Assembly: GCF_032813545.1 (NCBI RefSeq)
Contig: NZ_CP136520.1
Span: 3,404,001 to 3,468,000 of the forward strand
Length of the DNA: 64,000 bases
Source: Nodosilinea sp. E11
Lineage (GTDB): Bacteria; Cyanobacteriota; Cyanobacteriia; Phormidesmidales; Phormidesmidaceae
Direction of reading: 5' to 3'
Part shown: piece by piece, positions 404 through 12,705 of the stretch
Layout: each line of letters starts with the position of its first letter
How positions within the stretch are numbered: position 1 is the stretch's first letter
Notes under the pieces: generated by a model
The model's input: the letters and a program-made list of their open reading frames with translations, nothing else
What the model was told of the DNA's origin: nothing
Databases searched by the model: none
Translations under genes and position numbers: made by a program

Positions 404-484
404 CGGTTTACCTGACCTCCGCTGCCTGATCCCCGCTGTCCTACCCAACAGCCTTACACGTACAATTTAGACATTGAGCAATGC

Positions 485-490
485 AAGGAG
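485..490 (+). promoter_or_regulatory. ribosome binding site that points to an ATC start for recR
   Basis: AAGGAG is seen nine bases before an in-frame ATC codon at 500, but 24 bases before the first conventional in-frame start (TTG at 515). The spacing supports the ATC start. The ATG at 481 is in another frame. Confidence 0.5.
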
Positions 491-499
491 CTTTGCCCC

Positions 500-1093
500 A
501 TCTATACCCGTCCCTTGGCTCGACTAATTGAAGAATTCCAACGACTGCCTGGGGTTGGCCCCAAATCGGCCCAGCGGTTGGCGCTGCACATTCTCAAACG
601 CCCGCAGAACGAGGTGCAGGCTTTAGCGCAGGCACTGCTCGAAGCCAAAGCCCAGGTGGGCCAGTGCTCAGTGTGCTTTCACCTATCGGCAGACCCGGTG
701 TGCGACATCTGCCGGTCTACCAGTCGCGACCCCCAGACCCTTTGCGTCGTGGCCGACTCCCGCGATGTGATTGCCATTGAAAGGACCCGCGAGTATCGGG
801 GGCGTTACCATGTGCTTGGCGGGCTCATTTCACCCATGGATGGCATTGGCCCCGAACAGCTCACCATTGGCCCGCTCGTGCACCGGGTCAACCAAGAGGG
901 CACCCGGGAAGTGATTATTGCCATTAGCCCTAGCATTGAGGGCGACACCACGACTCTGTATGTTGGCCAACTGCTCAAGCCCTTTACTCGGGTCACCCGG
1001 ATTGCCTTTGGCTTGCCCATGGGAGGCGATTTAGAATATGCCGACGAAGTCACCCTGGCACGGGCATTAGAAGGACGGCGGGATTTGGAGTAG
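500..1093 (+). CDS. recR: recombination mediator protein RecR
   Basis: RecR works with RecF and RecO to load RecA on gapped single-stranded DNA. Seen: the helix-hairpin-helix [15 protein letters not shown] near the N-terminus, a C4 zinc finger ([16 protein letters not shown]) around residue 57, and a Toprim domain with [13 protein letters not shown]. Length (about 197 aa) is normal for the family. The start is unusual: cyanobacterial RecR typically begins M-V-Y-T-x-P-L-A-R-L, and here the reading frame gives ATC-TAT-ACC-CGT-CCC-TTG, that is I-Y-T-R-P-L, behind a well placed AAGGAG. A TTG at 515 is the conventional alternative but would remove the conserved YTRP. Confidence 0.93.
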
Positions 1094-1246
1094 ATCATGG
1101 AGGAACATGGTTAAGCTAGGGGCTTCACCTGAGCTGTCTGGCTAGAGAGCAGGGCCTTTAGCTAAGTCTTATACAATTCTGAACCTGTTCTGGCTTGCCT
1201 GGCGCGTAGGTTAGATTAAGAATGCACGGCCCGCTGATAGACATTC

Positions 1247-1278
1247 ACTGCAATCAGGGCTAACTGCAATCAGGGCTA
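1247..1278 (+). repeat. tandem direct repeat, 2 x 16 bp
   Basis: ACTGCAATCAGGGCTA occurs twice head to tail at 1247-1262 and 1263-1278, in the gap between recR and the first histidine phosphatase gene. It may sit in the leader of the downstream gene. Confidence 0.9.
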
Positions 1279-1335
1279 CTGTACTAGGGGCTACCGCCTT
1301 GGGCACCACTGTCCTTTTCTTACCGCCAGGCACCG

Positions 1336-1980
1336 ATGGGAGTTTTTCTTTACTTTTTGCGCCATGGTCAAACGGCCTATAGCCTCACGGGGGGCTATTG
1401 TGGCATGCCCGAAAACGACCCTGGCCTGACTCCCGAGGGTATTGCCATGGCCCAGGAGTTTGCGGAGACCTATGCCCACCTGCCCTGGAGCGCTGCCTAT
1501 GTCAGTCCCCTGCGGCGAGCGGTCGAAACCGCTCGCCCCCTGTGCGAACTGATCGGGATGGAGATGCAGCTGCGCGACGGGCTGCGGGAAGTGATGTATG
1601 GCCGTTGGGAGGGTATGCACCCTACGGTGGTCGATCGGGAACACCACGATGAGTATGTGGCCTGGCTGACCGACCCCGCTTGGTATGCGCCCGTTGGCGG
1701 CGAACGGGCCGTAGATATTGCCCGCCGCTCAGCTCAGGTGCTCGATGAAATTGAGCGCAATCATATCAGCGGGCATATTTTAATTGTTTCGCATAAAGCC
1801 ACCATTCGCATTATGCTGTGCACGCTGCTGGGCATTGATGTGGGTCGCTATCGCGATCGCCTCGATATGCCGGTAGCAGCTGTCAGCGTGGTGGAGTTGG
1901 GCAACCGAGGGCCGTTGTTTCACACCATTGCCGATCGCTCTCACCTAAGCGATCAGCTGCGATCGCTCCCCTGCACCTGA
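1336..1980 (+). CDS. histidine phosphatase family protein (phosphoglycerate mutase-like)
   Basis: Branch of the phosphoglycerate mutase/acid phosphatase superfamily, which moves phosphate through a histidine intermediate. Seen: the catalytic LRHGQTAYS close to the N-terminus, SPLRRAVETA around residue 56 with the phosphate-binding Arg, an acidic LREVMYGRWEGM, and the second catalytic histidine in IVSHKATIRIM. All catalytic positions are intact, so activity is likely; the substrate cannot be read from sequence. Thirteen bases separate it from a paralog, and the two are probably cotranscribed. Confidence 0.88.
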   Translation: MGVFLYFLRHGQTAYSLTGGYCGMPENDPGLTPEGIAMAQEFAETYAHLPWSAAYVSPLRRAVETARPLCELIGMEMQLRDGLREVMYGRWEGMHPTVVDREHHDEYVAWLTDPAWYAPVGGERAVDIARRSAQVLDEIERNHISGHILIVSHKATIRIMLCTLLGIDVGRYRDRLDMPVAAVSVVELGNRGPLFHTIADRSHLSDQLRSLPCT

Positions 1981-1993
1981 GGACAAGCACCCT

Positions 1994-2647
1994 ATGCCCC
2001 TGAGGCTTTACCTGCTCCGCAACGCCGAAACCGAGTACTGCCGCACTGGCCGCTATTGCAGCCAAGATGGGGTGGCACTCACGGTGCAAGGGCAGCAAAT
2101 GGCCGACTATTTTGCTAAGGCCTACCACCACGTCGATTGGCAGGCCATTTTTTGCAGTCCCCTGCACCATGCTGCCGCTACGGTGCAGCCCCTGTGCAAA
2201 ATCACTGGGCTCGCGGTACAGCGCCGCGAGCAGTTGCGAGAGCTCTCCTTTGGTCGGTGGGAGGGAATGGCCCCCACCCAAGTCAACACGCTGTTCCACG
2301 ATGATTACATTCGCTGGCTGGCCGACCCCGCCTGGAACACCCCCACCGACGGCGAAAAAGCGATGCAGGTGGCCCGCCGCAGCTCCGATGTGCTGGCAGA
2401 GATTGAAGATACCTATCCCGACGGCAACGTGCTGGTGGTATCTCACAAGGCTACTTTGCGCATCATGCTGTGCACGCTGCTGGGCATTGATGTGGGTCGC
2501 TACCGCGATCGCCTAGCCATGCCCGTCACCGCAATTTCCCTCGTTGAGCTGATGGACTATGGCCCCTTTGTGCGCCAGCTCAACAACTGTTCTCACCTAC
2601 CTTTGCATCTGCGTCGCCCCTGGGCAGGCAACGGCTCTGACAGTTAG
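1994..2647 (+). CDS. histidine phosphatase family paralog lacking the catalytic histidine
   Basis: A tandem duplicate of the preceding gene with the same domain layout: SPLHHAAATVQPL, LRELSFGRWEGM and VVSHKATLRIMLC are all recognisable. The signature RHG motif, however, reads LRNAETEY: the phospho-accepting histidine is asparagine (codon AAC) and the following glycine is alanine. From family knowledge this should abolish the phosphohistidine mechanism, so the protein is probably a pseudo-enzyme, perhaps a ligand-binding or regulatory partner of its neighbour (inference). The frame is open to full length, which argues against simple decay. Confidence 0.85.
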   Translation: MPLRLYLLRNAETEYCRTGRYCSQDGVALTVQGQQMADYFAKAYHHVDWQAIFCSPLHHAAATVQPLCKITGLAVQRREQLRELSFGRWEGMAPTQVNTLFHDDYIRWLADPAWNTPTDGEKAMQVARRSSDVLAEIEDTYPDGNVLVVSHKATLRIMLCTLLGIDVGRYRDRLAMPVTAISLVELMDYGPFVRQLNNCSHLPLHLRRPWAGNGSDS

Positions 2648-2872
2648 TACCCTTGGTGCCCGACTAGCTTGTCTCTAGCCCAACCGTTCCAGGCCCTAGT
2701 TTTCTGGGGGCATTGGTTGCCATGGGGTGCCTTGCGCCTAGGTTTGTGGACCGCGCCAATTCGGGTTTTACGCTTCTATAACCCTCTATCCAACGAAATA
2801 TCCCGCCTGCCAGATGTCAGCGACTCAAAAAACCGGTCTGATGAGAGAGAAGAGCAAAGGGATGGAACCAAC

Positions 2873-5800
2873 ATGACTGGATGGTTGAGTGAGATACAAG
2901 GACAGAGTATGGGTTGGCTGCATCTGGTACAGGTACCGGTGGCACCTGTGTCGCCGCGTGTCACAACCCCAGAAGATGCTGCGCTCATTTTTTCGGGGCC
3001 GCAGTTTTTTATTGCTTTACTGTCAGGGATAGTGCTGGCCTTTGGCTTTCAGTTACTACTCACCAACCTGTCAGTAGCTGTTGGCATCTCTGCGGTCGGG
3101 CAGAGCCACTCTAGCCGACGCGCTAGCAGCAATGGCAGCAGCCCACCCATTGCCACCGCCGTGGGCCTCTGGACCGTGATTACAGTGAGCCTGGCTCTGT
3201 TTTTCGCCTGTCTGCTTGCGGTCAAGCTCAGCCTCTACAGCAGTGCCCTCCTAGGAGCGATTACGGGCCTAGTGATTTGGGGCACTTATTTTTGTTTGCT
3301 GTTTTGGGTCAGTTCCACCACGGTTGGGTCTTTAGTGGGCTCGGTGGTCAAAACGGCTACCTCTAGCTTCCAAGCGTTGATGGGCACGGCGACCTCGGCG
3401 ATGGGGGCGCGTGCTGCTAGCAGCCAGGTTGTCGCTACGGCTGAAGCCACCGCTGCCGCTGTTCGCCAAGAACTAATGTCTGGCTGGGATAGTAACGACA
3501 TCAAAGACACTCTGCGGGAATATCTTTCTGGCCTGCGATCGCCCGGTATTGATACCGCTGCCATAGAAGGGGAGTTTGAGCGTCTGCTGCAAGAATCGGG
3601 CGTCGTCGCTCAAACCGATCGCGATGTGCTAGCTCAAATTGATCGCGGCGCCTTTGAACAACTTGTGAGCCGTCGCACTGACCTCTCTCCCCAAGAAACT
3701 CGACGGATTGCCGATCGCCTCTATAAGAGCTGGTCGCGAGCCCTGGGCCAGGCCTCGGAGCGCAATTCTATAGAGCAGTTGGTCGATTACGTCAAGTCGG
3801 CCCAGCGCGATGATTTAGTCTCGGGTCAACTGAGCGATCGCCTCGGTCAACTGCTATCAAACGACGACAAATCATCGTCCTCTGGTGGAGCGTCTTCCGG
3901 TTTACTACAGCAGGGTCTAGGCATGCTGATGGGGGTGGCCATGCAACGCCTCGATCTGTCTGACCTCGATATGGCTGACATTACTCGCCAGCTAAAGCAA
4001 GCGCAGCACCAGGTCACCGATACCGTCGCCTCCCTCACCTCGGGCAGTGAAAATGAAAGCGAGTCTTACAACGTCATTAAGGCGGATGTTGAGACCTATC
4101 TTTCTACCGCTTATCCTTGGCAGCTTCAGCCCCAGCGCATGAAGCAAGACTTCTGGCAGGTAATCTACGACCCGACAGCCGATCCGGGTCAGCTGCGTCA
4201 GACCCTACGCCCGCTCAATCGCGCTTACTTTGCCGATATTCTGGCCCAGCGAGGTCTACTCACTCAGCAAGAAATCGCCCAAGTCTCTGCCCAGCTAGAT
4301 GCCGTGCGTCAGCAGGTGCTGGCAGAAGTGTCTGAGCGCTACCGGTTAGAGGCCGCTAAAACGTTGCAGACTCGGGTTTACACCTTCTTGCAGCGCGCCG
4401 ATCGCCAGGACTTGGTGGCGGGTGACGATACCCAGACCTTTGAGCAGATTATTGCCGATCCCTACGCCGATGCCGATGAACTGCGCGATCGCTACACCAG
4501 CTTTAGCTACGACGCCTTCCGTGATGCCTTGAGGGCACGCGGTGATCTAAGCGAAGCTGAGATCGAACAGGTAGCCCACCGCCTAAAGCGGGCCATGAAC
4601 ACCGTCCATGCCGATGCCGTAGGGCTTCAGACCGCTGCCACCACCCGCATTGACAACCAGTGGCAGGCACTACAAGACTACCTGCGGTCTACCGGCAAAG
4701 CCGAACTCAGCCCAGAGATGATTAAGGCCGACATTCGCGCCCTATTGGACGAACCCGATGCTGGTCTCCACCAAGTGCGGCAGCACTTAGCCCAGTTTGA
4801 CCGCGACACCCTGGTGCAGTTGCTCAGTCAACGCAACGACCTCAGTGAGGAGCAGGTGCAGGCGACCCTTGATAATGTCGAGGCCACCTGGTACCAGACC
4901 GTTCATGCGCCAGCGGCCCTGACCGCCCAGGCCAAGGCCAAATACAACGAGGCTACCCAGGCGATCGAAACTTACCTGCTCAAAACCGGTAAGCCAGAGC
5001 TAAATCCTGAGGGCATTAAGCGTGACCTTGATCTACTCATGCACGATCCTAAGCTGGGTTTGCAGGCGGTAGGCGATCGCTTGGCTGAAATGGACCGCGA
5101 TACCCTGGTGAAGCTGCTCAGCCAGCGAGGCGACATGACCGAGGCTGAGGTCAATCAAACCATTGACAGCATTCAGGGCAGCATAGTCGATGTGCTCAAG
5201 CTACCTCAGCGGCTAGCTCGCCGGGCCAAGACCCAGGTAATGTCCTTTGAGGAAGCTCTAGAAGACTACCTGCGCAACACCGATAAAGCAGCCCTCAACC
5301 CCGATGGCATTAAGCGTGACCTGCGGCTGTTGCTGCAAGACCCTCGCCTGGGAGCCGATCGCCTACAAACCCGCCTGAGCATGATTGACCGCGATGCCGT
5401 TGTCGCTCTGTTGGCTCAACGCCCCGACATGACCCAGGCCGAAGCCGAGGCGGCTGTCGATCGGGTGCTCGAAATTCGCCATCAGATCTTCGCTCAAATT
5501 CAGCAGGTGCAAGCCAAAGTTAAGGGTGTGATCGACGGCATTCTAGGCCGTATTCGCCAGTACCTAGAGTCTCTCGATCGCCCAGAGCTAGACTACTACG
5601 GCATTAAGCGCGACCTGCAACAGCTGATGGCTGACCCCAAAGCTGGCTTTGACGCCCTCAGCACTCGTCTCAACCAGGTCGATCGAGATACCTTAGTCGC
5701 CCTGCTCAGCTCCCACGACGCCATTTCTGAAACCGATGCCCAACGGCTGATTAACCAGGTAGAAGAGGTGCGCACCTCTGCCCTCAACAAGGCCGAACAG

Positions 5801-5965
5801 CTTGAGCACGAGGTCGAAAAGCGTCTGGCCGAAATGCGCTACCAGGTCGAAAAGCAAGTTGAAGACACCCGTAAAACCGCTGCAACCGCTGCCTGGTGGA
5901 TCTTCGGTACCGCTACGGTATCAGCCATCTTTGCGGCGCTCGGGGGTGGCCTAGCTACCCTATAG
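2873..5965 (+). CDS. large membrane-anchored helical repeat protein, 1030 aa, function unknown
   Basis: Not assigned to a named family. Seen: hydrophobic segments near residues 44-66, 95-118 and 121-147, a Ser/Gly-rich linker at 333-343, then a long acidic helical region, and a final hydrophobic segment at 1006-1030 (TAAWWIFGTATVSAIFAALG). The middle holds about seven copies of a 70-75 residue unit spaced about 100 residues apart (near 208, 400, 498, 597, 695, 795, 891), best conserved in the last four, with consensus YL...K.ELNP.GIKRDL..LL.DP then DRDTLV.LLSQR.DMT. Both ends therefore reach a membrane, with a large helical domain between. The ATG at 2873 was preferred to a TTG 68 codons upstream; ATG at 2909, behind AAGGA, is another option. 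Confidence 0.8.
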   Translation: MTGWLSEIQGQSMGWLHLVQVPVAPVSPRVTTPEDAALIFSGPQFFIALLSGIVLAFGFQLLLTNLSVAVGISAVGQSHSSRRASSNGSSPPIATAVGLWTVITVSLALFFACLLAVKLSLYSSALLGAITGLVIWGTYFCLLFWVSSTTVGSLVGSVVKTATSSFQALMGTATSAMGARAASSQVVATAEATAAAVRQELMSGWDSNDIKDTLREYLSGLRSPGIDTAAIEGEFERLLQESGVVAQTDRDVLAQIDRGAFEQLVSRRTDLSPQETRRIADRLYKSWSRALGQASERNSIEQLVDYVKSAQRDDLVSGQLSDRLGQLLSNDDKSSSSGGASSGLLQQGLGMLMGVAMQRLDLSDLDMADITRQLKQAQHQVTDTVASLTSGSENESESYNVIKADVETYLSTAYPWQLQPQRMKQDFWQVIYDPTADPGQLRQTLRPLNRAYFADILAQRGLLTQQEIAQVSAQLDAVRQQVLAEVSERYRLEAAKTLQTRVYTFLQRADRQDLVAGDDTQTFEQIIADPYADADELRDRYTSFSYDAFRDALRARGDLSEAEIEQVAHRLKRAMNTVHADAVGLQTAATTRIDNQWQALQDYLRSTGKAELSPEMIKADIRALLDEPDAGLHQVRQHLAQFDRDTLVQLLSQRNDLSEEQVQATLDNVEATWYQTVHAPAALTAQAKAKYNEATQAIETYLLKTGKPELNPEGIKRDLDLLMHDPKLGLQAVGDRLAEMDRDTLVKLLSQRGDMTEAEVNQTIDSIQGSIVDVLKLPQRLARRAKTQVMSFEEALEDYLRNTDKAALNPDGIKRDLRLLLQDPRLGADRLQTRLSMIDRDAVVALLAQRPDMTQAEAEAAVDRVLEIRHQIFAQIQQVQAKVKGVIDGILGRIRQYLESLDRPELDYYGIKRDLQQLMADPKAGFDALSTRLNQVDRDTLVALLSSHDAISETDAQRLINQVEEVRTSALNKAEQLEHEVEKRLAEMRYQVEKQVEDTRKTAATAAWWIFGTATVSAIFAALGGGLATL

Positions 5966-5983
5966 CCCACTTGGTCAAATGAG

Positions 5984-6019
5984 AAGCAGCCGTTCTATTG
6001 ATTTAGGATGGCTGCTTTC
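5984..6019 (+). terminator. stem-loop after the large repeat protein gene
   Basis: AAGCAGCC pairs with GGCTGCTT (8 bp, extended by one G-U pair) across an 18-base loop, followed by a short T run. It lies 18 bases past the stop codon. Confidence 0.6.
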
Positions 6020-6074
6020 CGCATTTCAGCCCCCCTCAACGTAAAGCTACGCCTTTAGATACAGAGTTTTGACT

Positions 6075-7298
6075 ATGAATTTTCAGTGGTTTACGCCTCT
6101 TCTAGCCCCCATAGTATTAGGGTTAGCCATCGCCAGTTGTGCCGCCTCCCCGCCAGAAAATGGCACAGATACTTCGGAGGCTGGACAGGCCACAGACCCT
6201 GCCCCTGAGTCCCCTGAGGCAGCCTTACCGGTTGTTGACTCAGTGGAGCCGCTCACCCTGGTCGAGGGGCTAGAGCACCCCTGGGGCATGACCTGGCTAC
6301 CCAACGGCGATCTGCTGATTACCGAGCGTCCAGGCCGTCTGCGCCGGGTCAGCAGCAGCGGAGAACTCGATCCGACCCCCATTGCCGGTGTACCCGATAT
6401 GTTCACCGCCGGTCAAGGCGGTCTATTAGACATCGCTCTGCACCCCGACTTTGAGACTAACAACTGGGTTTACTTTGCCTACGCTGACGGCACCTCCCAG
6501 GCCAATCGCACCCAGGTGGCCCGCGCCCGCCTAGAGGATAATGCCCTCGCCGATTGGGAGGTGATCTTTGCCGTCAACCAAGATAAATCCGATGGCCAGC
6601 ATTTCGGGTCACGCCTGCTGTGGCTGCCCGATGGCACTCTGCTGGTAGCCATTGGCGACGGCGGCAACCCACCGCTACAGATTGGCGGCGATCTAGCCCG
6701 CAACCAAGCCCAAAATTTGCAAACGCATCTGGGTGCAGTTGTGCGCCTCCGCGACGATGGCTCTGTGCCCGACGACAACCCCTTTATCGATGACCCCACA
6801 GCCGATCCCCTGATGTGGAGCTATGGTCATCGCAATATTCAAGGATTGGCCCTCGACCCCACCACCAACCAAGTCTGGTCAACGGAGCACGGCGCTCGGG
6901 GCGGTGACGAACTCAACCGCCTGGCCCCTGGAGAAAACTATGGCTGGCCGATCGTGACCTTTAGTGAAGAATACAGCGGCGGACCTATCACCTCTGAGAC
7001 CTCGCGCCCCGATATGGTCAACCCCGTCACCTACTGGACTCCGGCGACTGCCCCCTCAGGGCTAGCGGTGTATCGGGGCGATCGCTACCCCCAGTGGCAG
7101 GGACAGATTTTTGCAGGAGGCCTTGTTTCCCAAGATATTAAGCGCATTGAAGTCGATGCCAACGGCAATGTGGTCAACGAAACCCCTATCCCCATTGGGC
7201 AGCGGGTGCGCGATGTACGCCAAGGGCCAGACGGCTATCTCTATGTGCTCACCGATGCCGCCAACGGGCGCTTAATTCGTCTTGAACCAACCTCTTAA
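6075..7298 (+). CDS. PQQ-dependent sugar dehydrogenase, lipoprotein
   Basis: Member of the glucose/sorbosone dehydrogenase beta-propeller family, periplasmic enzymes that oxidise sugars or related aldehydes with pyrroloquinoline quinone. Seen: a signal peptide ending in the lipobox IASC at about residue 25, a Pro/Glu/Thr-rich linker (to about 57), then the propeller with GMTWLPNGDLLITERPGRL, GLLDIALHPDF, WSYGHRNIQGLALD and WSTEHGARGGDELN. Length (407 aa) is usual. The ATG at 6075 follows a TTG two codons upstream and is the better start. Whether this organism makes PQQ is unknown from the window, and some family members may use other cofactors. Confidence 0.85.
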   Translation: MNFQWFTPLLAPIVLGLAIASCAASPPENGTDTSEAGQATDPAPESPEAALPVVDSVEPLTLVEGLEHPWGMTWLPNGDLLITERPGRLRRVSSSGELDPTPIAGVPDMFTAGQGGLLDIALHPDFETNNWVYFAYADGTSQANRTQVARARLEDNALADWEVIFAVNQDKSDGQHFGSRLLWLPDGTLLVAIGDGGNPPLQIGGDLARNQAQNLQTHLGAVVRLRDDGSVPDDNPFIDDPTADPLMWSYGHRNIQGLALDPTTNQVWSTEHGARGGDELNRLAPGENYGWPIVTFSEEYSGGPITSETSRPDMVNPVTYWTPATAPSGLAVYRGDRYPQWQGQIFAGGLVSQDIKRIEVDANGNVVNETPIPIGQRVRDVRQGPDGYLYVLTDAANGRLIRLEPTS

Positions 7299-7303
7299 CG
7301 GCG

Positions 7304-7338
7304 AAACGGGGGCACCCCGTTTGCGAGTGCCCCCGTTT
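7304..7338 (+). terminator. strong stem-loop after the sugar dehydrogenase gene
   Basis: AAACGGGGGCAC (7304-7315) pairs perfectly with GTGCCCCCGTTT (7327-7338) over an 11-base loop, five bases past the stop codon. It has no long T run. Confidence 0.75.
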
Positions 7339-7418
7339 GACTTCACCGGTATTAATGATCAACTGTCTGTGGAAGAGAGCACACTTTTGATCGCGCCCGC
7401 ATTCTAGATTGCGCAGTG

Positions 7419-7643
7419 TTAGGCAGCGTAGTCAAAGACAGCATCTAGGTAAAGGCGGTTAATGCGGCGATCGCTAACACCATTCTGCATCAGAAAAAGC
7501 GACAGGGCCGCACAAAATACCCGATGCTGACTCCAGGATGGATGGGTTTCTACGTAGTCTCTCATTGCTTCAAACAACTCTTCTGGCACCTCGACGCTCA
7601 GGCTGATTCTCGACGCCATTGCTGCCATAGACTGCTCACTCAT
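7419..7643 (-). CDS. DUF2811 domain-containing protein, 74 aa
   Basis: Small cyanobacterial protein family of unknown function. Seen: ISLSVEVPEELFEAMRDYVE, WSQHRVFCAALSLFLMQN and SDRRINRLYLDAVFD, the pattern I associate with DUF2811. The start resembles ribbon-helix-helix proteins (a beta strand followed by VPEELFEAM), so DNA binding is conceivable but not shown. The ATG at 7643 was chosen; an upstream in-frame extension of 67 codons has no conserved character. A start six codons further in (MAAMASRIS region) is also possible. Confidence 0.75.
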   Translation of the reverse strand: MSEQSMAAMASRISLSVEVPEELFEAMRDYVETHPSWSQHRVFCAALSLFLMQNGVSDRRINRLYLDAVFDYAA

Positions 7644-8117
7644 CGCCACTTCCCCAATCTGAAAATTAGACACCAGAACACAGCCCCTCCACCCTTCTGG
7701 CGGATTGGATCCCTTACTGTGAGGGAATCCTAGAGCCGCCGACCAGGTCAGAACAGAAGCGCTGTGTAAGCCGGTCGAACCATTGTCACTAGTGGGCCGG
7801 GGGATGTCAATCTTGCCAAGGTGGCCCCAATCCGCTAGCCTCACCAGACTTCAAACGAGGTATTGAGGGTTTCAGCGATCCCCATCGTTTCCCTCAGTAG
7901 CTGCTGCCACCAATAAGTACTAGAGTACCTGTGAATAACGCCCATGGCCATCCCATGGCCAAACCCTTAGCACTGCGTTCAAAGCTGGGGAAAACTCCTG
8001 TAAAACTGGGGAAAAAGTTGGGGAAAACCTCGTTGGATTTAAAAGAAAAGATTAAATCCCGCTGGGCTACAACTTTTAAGCAGTTTCCCTAAACATGGTC
8101 CCGTCCCTTGCACCCCC
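7644..8117. other. 474-base intergenic region with iterated TGGGGAAAA and a hairpin
   Basis: No gene is supported. TGGGGAAAA occurs three times (near 7986, 8007 and 8019) on the plus strand, followed by a perfect 8-bp stem, GGATTTAA (8035-8042) with TTAAATCC (8052-8059). The stretch lies downstream of rsgA and upstream of the DUF2811 gene (both minus strand), so it may hold that gene's promoter and the rsgA terminator. Confidence 0.6.
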
Positions 8118-9260
8118 TTAACCCAGGGGCAATTCTCCATCAGGTGCCGAGTCAAGGTAGTCTGCCTGATCGTCAAGGTTATAGCGCAGTTCGTCTAAGT
8201 CTTGCTTTTGACTGCGGCGAGATGGGCGACGGTACTTTTTAGTCTGAAGCCGAGGCTCGTGGTGGCGCTGCCCTTTCTCGCCTACTCTGACTTTCAGGGC
8301 AGCATCGGGGTCGCGCTGTTGACGGAGGTCTGCGTCATACTCGATCGCCTCCGCTAGCAGAGTGAGGTAAAACGGGTAGCGGGGCCAGGCCGTACCTACA
8401 GCACAGCCTGGGTCGCCCCGGTGCAGGCAGTCATTAAACTGGCAGTCTTCTAGGGCCAAGCGCTGACGAATTTCTGGGAAACACTGTCCCAGCGCCTCTG
8501 GTGGCAAGGTTAGGTCAGGCTGGTTAAAGCCAGGCGTATCGGCTAAAAAGCCGCCTTCTGGTAGTTCAAATAGCTCCACATGGCGGGTGGTGTGGCGACC
8601 CCGCCCCAGCTTGCCCGAGACGGCTCCAGTTCTTAAACTAGCCTGGGGAATCAGGCGATTGATCAGGCTAGATTTACCCACCCCCGATGGCCCAGAGACA
8701 ACCGTTGTGCGGCCTTGCAACTGCGATCGTAGCCCATCGAGAGCATCTCCCTCTTGCAGGCTGATCGCAGTGGGTGAGTAGCCCCATTGACCTAGCTGGT
8801 CTTGCCAATAGTGGAGCGTCTCGGCACTGACTAGATCCTGCTTGTTGAGGCAAAGGCTAACCGGCACGCCGGTGGCTTCAGCTTTTACCAAAAATCGCCC
8901 CAACTGCTGGGGGTCGAGGTCAGGTTCGGCCAGGGCAAATACTAGCAATATCTGGTCGGCATTAGCGACAGGCGGGCGGTCGAGCAGGCTTTGGCGGGCC
9001 CCTAGGGTAGCGATCGCCGCCCGCCCGTCAACCCAATCGATCGCCTCTAGCTGTACTCGGTCCCCCACCATCACCTGCTGACCGGTCTTCTTCAGCCGTG
9101 CCCGGCGAGTGCACAGCAAGACTGTCCCCCTACTACTCGGAGCATCGGGGGTATCTAGGCGCACGCGGTAATAATTGGCCTGGGTAGCCACAACGACCCC
9201 CCAAGGGCCCACGCCCTCCTCCCCAGCCATGTCTTTCCTAGGGTCGTAGGGCGCAATCAT
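8118..9260 (-). CDS. rsgA: ribosome small subunit-dependent GTPase RsgA
   Basis: Circularly permuted GTPase that checks late 30S subunit maturation. Seen: an N-terminal OB-fold; permuted order of G motifs with NKQD at 139-142, then GPSGVGKS at 190-197, then DTPGF at 241-245; and the zinc cluster with Cys273, Cys278, His280 and Cys286. The C-terminus carries a basic, Gln/Arg-rich tail (RRPSRRSQKQ region) followed by an acidic end, longer than the bacterial core. Its ATG overlaps the tusA stop by one base (TAATG), so the two are translationally coupled at the end of the dnaJ-tusA-rsgA run. Confidence 0.95.
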   Translation of the reverse strand: MIAPYDPRKDMAGEEGVGPWGVVVATQANYYRVRLDTPDAPSSRGTVLLCTRRARLKKTGQQVMVGDRVQLEAIDWVDGRAAIATLGARQSLLDRPPVANADQILLVFALAEPDLDPQQLGRFLVKAEATGVPVSLCLNKQDLVSAETLHYWQDQLGQWGYSPTAISLQEGDALDGLRSQLQGRTTVVSGPSGVGKSSLINRLIPQASLRTGAVSGKLGRGRHTTRHVELFELPEGGFLADTPGFNQPDLTLPPEALGQCFPEIRQRLALEDCQFNDCLHRGDPGCAVGTAWPRYPFYLTLLAEAIEYDADLRQQRDPDAALKVRVGEKGQRHHEPRLQTKKYRRPSRRSQKQDLDELRYNLDDQADYLDSAPDGELPLG

Positions 9261-9508
9261 TAAGCAGGACGGCGCACATGCAGGGCAAAGTAGTCGGTGC
9301 AGTCTTCTAAGTGCTCGATCACGTAGCCTTCCATCGTCAGGCTGTCGGGTACCTGCTCGACTGGCTCACCCGCATCGAGCCAGACCTCAAGCAGAGCACC
9401 AGGAGCCATTTTGTCGAGTTGCAGCTTAGTGCGCACAAAGTTGATAGGGCAGGGTGTGCCGCGCAGATCGAGGCGATCGCTAGGCAGCGCCGAAAAAGCA
9501 GTAGTCAT
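9260..9508 (-). CDS. TusA family sulfurtransferase-like protein
   Basis: TusA-type proteins carry sulfur as a persulfide on a conserved cysteine, for tRNA thiolation or cofactor synthesis. Seen: [22 protein letters not shown] around residues 13-35, with the conserved cysteine in CP; the usual CPxP reads CPIN here, so the second proline is absent. Length is 82 aa, typical. It overlaps dnaJ upstream by four bases (ATGA) and rsgA downstream by one base. The exact role (TusA itself or a paralog) is not decidable, so no symbol is given. Confidence 0.85.
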
Positions 9509-10626
9509 CCGCGAAATAGCCCCCCTAAAAAGCCCTCTATGCCCCCTCGGTTGACCTTTTCGCCGCGAATCTCGGCCAATTTCTCGACCAACTCACGCTC
9601 TTCAGGCTTCATGCGCGTCGGGATATCAACCTGAATAGTAATCAGGTGATCCCCCCGGCTGACAGGATTGCCCAGCTTGGGCACACCCCGATTGTCTAGA
9701 GTCAGCACAGTGCCTGGCTGGGTCCCCGCAGGAACATCCAACTCCTCTGGACCATCCACAGTGTCGATGGTGAGCTTGCAGCCCAAGATAGCCTGCAAAT
9801 AGCTAATCTTAAGGTCAGAGAGAATATTGATGCCATCGCGCTTGAAAGCCGCATCCTCGGCCACAAACAAGTAGACGTACAAATCTCCCGCCGGGCCACC
9901 GCGTAGTCCAGCATCTCCCTCATTCGACACCCGCAGTCGGGTGCCATTGTCTACTCCCGCCGGCACAGTAATTTTGAGCTTTTTCGTTTCCTGGGTTTGA
10001 CCGCTGCCACCACAGACCTCACAGCGATCTTCAATCACTTCGCCAGTGCCGTTACAGGTGGGGCAGGCCGACACCTGAGTAAAGCTGCCAAAGGGAGTGC
10101 GGGTGGCCCGACGCACCTGACCAGTACCACCACAGGTGCCGCAGGTAGTTGGGCGTGTGCCTGGCTTAGCCCCGCTGCCGGTGCAGGTGCCGCAGGTTTC
10201 TAGGTGGCTAATTTTGATTTCTTTTTCACCACCAAACACCGCCTCCTTGAAGTCGAGGCGCAGATCAAGACGCAAATCATCGCCGCGAGTTGGCCCTCGC
10301 CGCCGGGTTCCCTGACCCTGCCCCCCAGAAAACCCGCTGAAAAAGCTCTCAAAGATATCGGCAAAGCCACCCATATCGCCGAAGTCTTGGTACCCACCCG
10401 CACCAGCTCCAAGCCCTGCTTCCCCAAAGCGATCGTAACGGGCACGAGATTCAGGCTCAGACAGCGCCTCGTAGGCGCGGTTGATTTCTTTAAACGTGTC
10501 TTCAGCCCCAGGATCTTTATTGACATCCGGGTGGTACTTTCGGGCTAGGCGACGGTAGGCTCGCTTAATATCGTCTTGATCGGCGTTGCGCGAAATACCA
10601 AGAAGGTCATAGAAATCACGGGCCAT
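9505..10626 (-). CDS. dnaJ: chaperone protein DnaJ (type I Hsp40)
   Basis: Cochaperone that delivers substrates to DnaK and stimulates its ATPase. Full type I layout is seen: J domain with HPD in RKYHPDVN (about residues 31-38), Gly/Phe-rich linker, four zinc repeats [24 protein letters not shown] and CEVCGGSG between about 147 and 215, and the C-terminal substrate domain. Length (373 aa) is standard. It lies 117 bases behind dnaK on the same strand and overlaps the TusA-like gene by four bases. Confidence 0.97.
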
Positions 10627-10685
10627 AGGGGGCTACCTAGACAACTCCAGCAACAATCAAACATTAAACCATTTTAAAAGGAGTG

Positions 10686-10704
10686 CCCACCTTGGCTAGG
10701 TGGG
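10686..10704 (-). terminator. weak stem-loop between dnaK and dnaJ
   Basis: CCCACCT pairs with AGGTGGG over a five-base loop, 40 bases after the dnaK stop. Read on the minus strand it is followed by CACTCCTTTT. It may attenuate rather than end transcription into dnaJ. Confidence 0.35.
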
Positions 10705-10719
10705 ATACCCGCCCCCTAA

Positions 10720-10749
10720 ATTCCGGTCTCAGTCATTCCGGTCTCAGTC
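10720..10749. repeat. tandem 15-bp duplication across the dnaK stop codon
   Basis: ATTCCGGTCTCAGTC occurs twice in tandem (10720-10734 and 10735-10749). The second copy contains the complement of the dnaK TGA stop at 10744-10746. It looks like a recent slippage duplication. Confidence 0.9.
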
Positions 10750-12705
10750 AATGGCCTCGTAATCAGCAGTGACGGTTGCGTCTAGCCCTACGTCACCGTC
10801 GTAGGTGGCATCGTCGTCCACATCCGGTTCACTGTCTGGTTCAGCATTGAAGTAGGCCGCAGCCGGAATCCCCATATCAACGTCCTCATCGGGTTGAACC
10901 TCCCGATAAAAGTTGGCCCCTACCGCAAAGATGGCCGATTGCAAGGCATCAATAGCTCCTTGGAAGGTAGCGACCTCAATGCCGGGTGTATGGGTAGCGG
11001 CCCGCAACTCATTGGCCTTTGCTTCGAGATCGGCTCGGGCCGTATCGTCGAGCAGACTACCGTGGTCGCGCAGTGTGGCCTCGTAGCTGTAAAACAAATT
11101 GTCGGCTCGATTGATGAGTTCAGCGATCTGTCGCCGTCGATCGTCTTCACCAGCGTAGGTTTCGGCTTCGATCCGCATGCGATCGACCTCATCATTGGTG
11201 AGGCCACCAGTATTGGTAATACAGATACTCTGAGCACGCCCAGTACCTTTATCGAGGGCGGCTACCTTGAGAATGCCGTCGGCATCAATTTCAAAAGACA
11301 CCTCAATCTGCGGTACGCCCCGTGGAGCCGGAGGAATGCCAGTCAGCTCAAACTTGCCCAAGCTCTTGTTGTCGCGCGCCATGGCGCGCTCTCCCTGTAG
11401 CACATGAATTTCTACGGATGTTTGTCCATCAGTGGCCGTAGAAAAGACCTGAGACTTGCTGGTAGGAATAGTCGTGTTGCGCTCAATGATTTTGGTAAAT
11501 ACTTCTCCTAGAGTTTCAATGCCTAAAGACAGGGGGGTCACATCGAGCAGCAGCAGGTCTTTGACCTCGCCACCGAGCACCCCGGCCTGAATGGAGGCCC
11601 CTAGGGCTACCGCCTCATCGGGATTAACTGAGCGATCGGGCGGCTTGCCGTTGAAATAGGCGCTAATCGCTTGCTGCACGGCGGGAATGCGGGTCGACCC
11701 CCCCACTAATAGAATGCGATCAATCGCTTCGGGGCTGAGGTCGGCGTCTTTGAGGGCCTGCTTGACCGGTTCCAAGGTTGCTTGTACCAACTCTGAGGCA
11801 AATTGCTCAAACTGTGCGCGAGTCAGAGCCATTTCTAAATGTTTTGGCCCTGATTCATCAGCAGTGATAAAAGGCAAGTTGATTGAGGTCGACGGCATAT
11901 TTGACAGCTCAATTTTGGCCTTTTCAGCAGCTTCACGAATTCGCTGCAACGCCATGCGGTCGGCAGAAAGATCGATACCTTCCTGCTCTCGAAAAGCCGC
12001 TGTCATCCATTCGACAATGCAGTTATCGAAGTCGTCACCACCGAGATGGTTGTTGCCAGCGGTGGCTTTGACCTCAAAAACACCGTCCCCTAACTGCAAA
12101 ATAGAGACATCAAAGGTGCCACCGCCAAGGTCAAAGACCAAGACGATTTGGTCTTGGTCTTGCTTGTCGAGACCATAGGAGAGGGCAGCCGCCGTAGGCT
12201 CATTAATAATCCGCAGTACCTCTAGGCCAGCAATGGTGCCAGCATCCTTGGTCGCTTGACGCTGGGCATCGGTGAAATAGGCAGGTACGGTAATCACGGC
12301 CTGGGTGACTTCGGTACCCAAATAGGTTTCAGCATCCTGCTTCAATTTTTGCAGAATCATGGCAGAAACTTCCTGGGGCGTAAACGCCTTGCCACGAATC
12401 TGCACATCTACCGTGCTATCGCGTCCGCTGACGCAAACGTAAGGCACCCGGCTGCGTTCAGCCTCTGTGTCTTCCCAACGACGGCCGATAAATCGCTTGA
12501 TACTGTAAACCGTATTTTCGGCATTAGTCACGGCTTGCCGCTTGGCTAGTTGGCCTACCAGACGTTCGCCGTTTTTGCCAAAACCAACAATGCTGGGTAC
12601 CGTGCGGCCCCCCTCAGTGCTGGAAATTACCGCTGGTTTACCGCCTTCGAGGACGGCGACACAGCTGTTGGTTGTTCCTAGGTCAATGCCGATTACTTTT
12701 CCCAT
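10744..12705 (-). CDS. dnaK: molecular chaperone DnaK (Hsp70)
   Basis: ATP-driven chaperone for protein folding. Seen: the N-terminal [30 protein letters not shown], the phosphate loop [24 protein letters not shown], the linker [18 protein letters not shown], and a substrate-binding domain followed by an acidic tail ending in DYEAID. Length 653 aa. Positioned grpE-dnaK-dnaJ on the minus strand, which supports the housekeeping chaperone set. Cyanobacteria carry several dnaK paralogs, so the paralog number is left open. No CIRCE element was seen upstream. Confidence 0.97.

Follow-up and report, generated by a model that had tools for sequence, protein, structure and literature searches.

What would a cyanobacterium do with a chain of 1030 residues that is hydrophobic at both ends and carries a tandem helical repeat in between? 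The question is raised by an open reading frame at 2873..5965 on the plus strand of the window, the 64,000-nucleotide stretch of the Nodosilinea sp. E11 genome analysed here. Our answer is that it encodes an undescribed cyanobacterial membrane protein that probably helps to keep photosynthetic membranes ordered. A literature search run without a model-strain locus tag, and hence weak, found no paper recognisable as describing this protein. An earlier note had described a membrane protein of this length with about seven repeat copies; the reading frame holds, and we found seven copies together with a degenerate eighth slot.

The gene and its locus

The initial methionine was invariant in an alignment with relatives (7 rows), which supports the ATG at 2873 as the start; a TTG at 2669 would give a longer reading of the same frame. 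The closest named relatives that we found came from two Nodosilinea strains and two filamentous cyanobacteria, with identities of 79-80%.

The gene is flanked by histidine phosphatase genes on one side and by a glucose/sorbosone dehydrogenase gene on the other. The histidine phosphatase genes (PF00300) form a tandem pair directly upstream (1336-1980 and 1994-2647), and such a pair occurs too in loci L032, L034 and L035. Farther along the window, positions 7419-7844 on the minus strand encode a 141-residue protein with DUF2811 at residues 81-137, which short proteins in L084 and L085 resemble by eye. An Rfam scan of the window gave zero matches at gathering scores, and promoter and terminator scans gave results at chance level.

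Membrane anchors and the N-terminal domain

Hydropathy peaked at residues 45-63, 99-117, 119-159 (a broad peak) and 1006-1030, placing membrane segments at both ends, as had been claimed. We take these peaks for three membrane helices near the N terminus and one at the C terminus, with a long helical middle between them. With limits drawn by eye, the helices span residues 45-65 (3005..3067), 98-117 (3164..3223), 125-147 (3245..3313) and 1005-1026 (5885..5950), all on the plus strand. Across 72 aligned rows the membrane segments are almost without charge, with a mean count of 0 in helices 1 and 2 and of 0.17 K/R and 0.03 D/E in helix 3; the C-terminal helix was likewise delimited from hydropathy and charge counts. 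It is preceded by a long helical segment with a TRKxAA motif (residues 962-1004; 5756..5884, plus strand), modelled at low confidence as one helix over residues 953-1029. The motif is also present, by eye, in family variants of about 500 residues.

Charge counts from the same 72 rows bear on sidedness. The segment after helix 3 carries 1.43 K/R versus 0.08 D/E, the segment before the last helix 4.24 K/R versus 3.33 D/E and the segment after it 0.21 K/R, while the loop joining helices 1 and 2, which the proposed topology puts on the cytoplasmic side, carries 2.93 K/R versus 3.75 D/E. These counts point both ways and lend mixed support to a cytoplasmic repeat.

The N-terminal membrane domain (residues 40-200; 2990..3472, plus strand) is, by profile comparison, homologous to a stand-alone cyanobacterial membrane protein of 216-237 residues (hhalign probability 97.7%, E=2.3e-12; reciprocal profile match in its own genome, 4.7e-7). 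Unlike the long protein, the stand-alone form has neither the repeat nor a comparable C-terminal anchor, and it gave zero Pfam or NCBIfam matches. Its existence would fit a reading in which the N-terminal domain does the work, as a sensor, channel or transporter-like unit, and the repeat offers stress proteins a platform to dock on. The domain is conserved as well as repeat copies 5-8, and in L072 and L056 the neighbours of the stand-alone gene include hemerythrin, DUF2382 and ferritin-like or catalase-like genes (catalase by eye); in 7 of the 17 matching genomes of the window's genus (for example, L082 and L083) the long gene is followed on its own strand, after ~2-2.6 kb, by a match to the stand-alone protein. 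However, the three helices are almost free of charged residues, no transporter family was found by the Pfam and NCBIfam scans and the fixed spacing of the modules is left unexplained, and we consider this reading unlikely.

Repeat copies and their spacing

We built a repeat profile from one seed (residues 695-769), searched it against the same protein and then iterated. This search, which the earlier note had proposed, recovered seven copies of a 68-residue core in the last round. The six non-seed copies scored 9.6 to 70.7 bits in the first round, prior to iteration, and even the weakest exceeded the best of 500 shuffles of residues 161-1000 (7.3 bits). On the plus strand, the cores lie at residues 214-281 (copy 1; 3512..3715), 406-471 (copy 3; 4088..4285), 502-569 in register (copy 4; 4376..4579, HMM match 504-568), 600-667 (copy 5; 4670..4873), 698-765 (copy 6; 4964..5167), 796-863 (copy 7; 5258..5461) and 894-961 (copy 8; 5552..5755). 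The motifs IKRDL..LL.DP and DRDTLV.LLSQR.DM are common to the last four copies, as had been noticed. Our main correction concerns the proposed unit of 70-75 residues, which stands as the conserved core but not as the period: with its linker of ~30 residues the core recurs every 98 residues, except that copy 4 follows copy 3 after 96.

The starts of copies 4 to 8 are spaced 98 residues apart, and copy 1 is separated from copy 3 by 192 residues, or about two periods. A two-module profile made solely from copies 3-8 matches residues 208-381, which cover copy 1 and the place of a second copy (E=9e-14). The double gap and this match thus reveal a degenerate eighth copy between copies 1 and 3. This slot 2 (about residues 302-376; 3776..4000, plus strand) contains a Ser/Gly-rich insert and yielded weak HMM pieces at residues 305-329 and 358-376 after iteration.

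The spacing was counted in a non-redundant set of 67 homologues, each with exactly seven strong copies, leaving out 22 rows that had other strong-copy numbers, broken genes, small membrane proteins or, in one case, an unrelated MlaD protein. The interval was 98 residues in 66 of the 67 for copies 6-7 and again for copies 7-8, in 63 for copies 4-5 and in 58 for copies 5-6 (94 in a further 7), and it was 96 in 66 of the 67 for copies 3-4. The distance from copy 1 to copy 3 was variable, at 183 to 234 residues. Because the intervals are near-fixed among homologues while the linkers of the window protein are only 3-20% identical to one another, the length of the linker is kept where its sequence varies.

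Comparison with known families

Neither the repeat nor the membrane domain was explained by any family in Pfam and NCBIfam scans, in line with the earlier failure to place the unit in a known family; no characterised family accounted for a repeat that proved regular. The sole Pfam match above its cut-off was to HU (Bac_DNA_binding, PF00216), at 28.1 bits for the whole protein versus a gathering score of 22.4 (E=2.4e-6), with its best stretch over profile positions 1-37 of 90. The match covers residues 740-776, corresponds to the first two HU helices only and could mislead automatic annotation. The resemblance lies in the helix-turn-helix part of the repeat, RDTLVxLLSQRxDMxExEV. After its first two helices HU carries DNA-binding strands; the long protein shows no strand part, is repeated and is anchored in the membrane, and a full-length HU fold was not found, since the models give helix only after the matched part (low confidence).

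Of 21 two-module fragments, 12 also matched HU at E<=0.01, and the match would be the basis for a tether that holds the nucleoid or DNA through HU-like motifs. The match ends before the part of HU that carries the strands, where our low-confidence models place helix, and the cores are acidic, with an average charge of -4.8; we regard such a tether as extremely improbable.

Spectrin-type repeats offer a comparison of architecture. They are helical modules of ~100 residues in tandem, with helices that continue between modules to give a spacer of set length, and the long protein, with its own tandem ~100-residue helical modules and linking helices, would work like such a spacer or scaffold. It differs in being anchored at both ends, in giving no Pfam or PDB sequence match to these repeats and in its helix pattern of one long and about three short helices (low-confidence models). 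The spectrin repeat was not among the 8 Pfam families listed for the window protein, HMMER filters dropping most matches above ~0.1. As to the three-helix bundle fold of spectrin, the two-module model (low confidence) produced zero Foldseek matches at E<=0.001.

Several other candidates were dropped. Searches of the PDB gave no significant match, the best being E 0.1 with the protein as query and E 0.016 with the profile (a chain named H12; annexin VI, 0.44). The NCBIfam model ExbD_2 reached E 5e-4 but only 20.4 bits versus a cut-off of 123, and a 469-residue protein with an MlaD domain (L074) was matched through a helical stretch (E=1.3e-4) and was discarded as a relative.

Linker helices and predicted structures

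Structure prediction, also suggested in the earlier note, supported helical secondary structure and failed to deliver the shape of the array. The full-length AlphaFold2 model (7 rows) had a mean pLDDT of 43.6 and a model of a two-module fragment (21 rows) one of 55.9, confidences so low that both are usable for secondary structure only; rod shape and array length are what we infer from them. An initial set of overlapping fragments was aligned out of register and was dropped. With the two-module model as query, Foldseek gave zero matches at E<=0.001 and VIA-align gave a Z of 5 or more in 0 of 30 chains, results of little weight given the confidence of the model.

In the full-length model, four of the five linkers that separate copies 3 to 8 are each spanned by a single helix of 44-47 residues. 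The helix of the remaining linker, that of copies 5-6, is interrupted near Pro680; the two-module model makes this linker one helix of 47 residues. The remainder of each core is modelled as about three short helices (all low confidence). A proline at the place of Pro680 in mid-linker occurs in 49% of 237 units and may kink the linker helix. Where the linker helix is unbroken, its continuity would explain why indels are rare.

Two rival explanations draw on these helices. The first, a tether between membranes as the earlier note thought possible, would be anchored by its N-terminal domain in one thylakoid or plasma membrane and by its C-terminal helix in the facing one, with eight stiff modules setting the gap. 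It is favoured by the hydrophobic anchors at either end, the near-constant spacing of the modules and the usual copy number, but insertion of a single chain into two separate membranes is unusual, and relatives vary from one to ten copies. In three other strains, fits of small-angle neutron scattering (SANS) data put the inter-thylakoid space at 430-555 A (PMC6920412); eight 47-residue helices end to end would measure ~56 nm (0.15 nm per residue, an upper guess), which is of the same order and suggestive only. The models from which a length per module would be read are of low confidence, and they place long helices nowhere but between copies 3 and 8 and near the C terminus. We rate a tether between two membranes as rather improbable. 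More doubtful still, in our view, is its elaboration into a bacterial molecular ruler. Here the eight modules, spaced almost identically, would form a doubly anchored rod across the space between two facing thylakoid membranes, or between thylakoid and plasma membrane. The rod would fix the width of that space, its length would be tuned by the number of modules, and stress would call up paralogues along with a CurT-like partner.

The second is a surface coat, in which both anchors share one membrane and the repeat lies along it, its amphipathic linkers dipping into the lipid in the manner of apolipoprotein-type helices. The linkers have a hydrophobic stripe at 98-102 degrees and a slightly positive charge (+0.7 on average), as illustrated by the basic linker between copies 6 and 7, LPQRLARRAKTQ, and the cores are acidic. 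The apolipoprotein A1/A4/E family (PF01442) was not listed for the window protein; the best of the paralogues scanned, L042, matched it at E=8e-8. That match has 32.6 bits, far under the curated cut-off of 90, amphipathic helices yield such matches easily and a helical bundle would need a hydrophobic stripe too. We regard the coat as a tentative alternative, less probable than the scaffold reading developed below.

Variation and distribution of the family

Both membrane ends are kept across variants, while the number of detected copies ranges from one weak copy to ten. Most of the members examined keep the length of the window protein. At the short end, L073 has 376 residues with one weak copy (its genome is 73% complete and its C-terminal match was made by eye), and variants of ~500 residues in four genomes also have one weak copy, although further diverged copies may escape detection. 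A 949-residue variant has six copies and a 1227-residue variant ten, including a weak slot 2. The best conserved parts are the two membrane ends and copies 5-8, with a mean identity of 59-64% to the window protein, compared to 30-49% for copies 1, 3 and 4 and slot 2. Two genes depart from these layouts: that of L054 is split over two separate frames, and that of L053 is only 287 residues long.

Within the phylum, 41 of 285 genomes gave a match to the two-module repeat profile and 46 of 292 to the whole protein; the latter figure includes genomes in which just the small membrane domain or a helical stretch was matched. Matches occurred in 17 of the 26 genomes of the window's genus. A midpoint-rooted tree of 63 rows placed 22 paralogue rows in a group of their own (support 99), apart from the group of the window protein. 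We found no relative on plasmids or phages, nor on viral contigs in a scan with two peptide patterns only.

Gene neighbourhood

We examined 56 loci with flanks, calling neighbours with profiles built from the loci and identifying representatives by Pfam; some loci are the same gene from two collections, some have a short flank on one side and L033 has almost none. Genes for YflT/DUF2382 proteins were nearby in 17 of the 56 loci, CAAD (CurT-type) genes in 11, BON lipoprotein genes in 11 and CsbD genes in 5; the small membrane protein was a neighbour in 3. Because 10 of the 11 CAAD-linked loci come from one genome family, this linkage represents few independent events. The eleventh (L052) has a different order, with CAAD on the strand of the long gene and ~0.1 kb behind it. 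In L053 and L056, YflT/DUF2382 comes shortly after the long gene and on its strand; in L092, L094 and L095, which belong to the window's genus, it precedes the long gene. None of these stress neighbours (YflT/DUF2382, BON, CsbD or CAAD) was found in the fetched flanks of the window copy and the nearest Nodosilinea-type loci.

Two loci have longer runs of neighbours. L056 contains eight same-strand genes (420-11028) that include the long protein, the small membrane protein, two genes of the YflT/DUF2382 cluster, a hemerythrin gene and a catalase-like gene (catalase by eye). Upstream of 9423 in L095, a BON gene, a YflT/DUF2382 gene and three CsbD-like matches precede a 43%-identical paralogue on the same strand. 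In a study of alkane-overproducing Nostoc punctiforme, Npun_F3786, F3787 and F3789 are reported as induced (PMC7660261), and these genes look like equivalents of the YflT-BON cluster that adjoins the paralogue, at the level of candidates.

CAAD shares homology with CURT1, which shapes thylakoid curvature (PMC4893482). AncM, named in a title in the reference list of PMC12462475, and CurT (CURT1 in PMC9950537) are thylakoid attachment and curvature proteins of Synechocystis. The likeness of the long protein to AncM and CurT is in the proposed job of keeping thylakoid membranes attached or shaped. CAAD is a Pfam family separate from the long protein, and AncM is likened by its proposed job only, not by sequence.

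Proposed function

We put the probability at about one half that the protein is a stress-linked, doubly anchored membrane scaffold or spacer, working at the cytoplasmic face in the interior of the cyanobacterial cell. In this scheme the modules would lie on the cytoplasmic (stromal) side of the membranes. Their array would be stiff and extended, because a helix of ~47 residues appears to run from one module into the next in the low-confidence models. It would brace or space regions of membrane, either thylakoid or thylakoid and plasma membrane, and may serve as the scaffold in a general response to membrane stress, alongside CurT-like, BON, YflT/DUF2382 and CsbD proteins. The earlier suggestion of a tether or scaffold fits this anatomy, with both ends kept while copy number varies and with spacing near-fixed. 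The link to stress comes from paralogues, which often have such genes as neighbours; the window copy and its nearest Nodosilinea-type loci have none, which weakens the scaffold reading.

Beyond gap-filling phycobilisomes, we know of no settled answer to what sets the distance between cyanobacterial membranes. The repeat family described here gives a definable domain to a protein lacking an explanatory Pfam or NCBIfam family, and flags the misleading HU match above cut-off. It is also a concrete candidate for membrane spacing with a length parameter that is testable, because natural homologues with the same two ends differ in module number, from one weak copy up to about ten.
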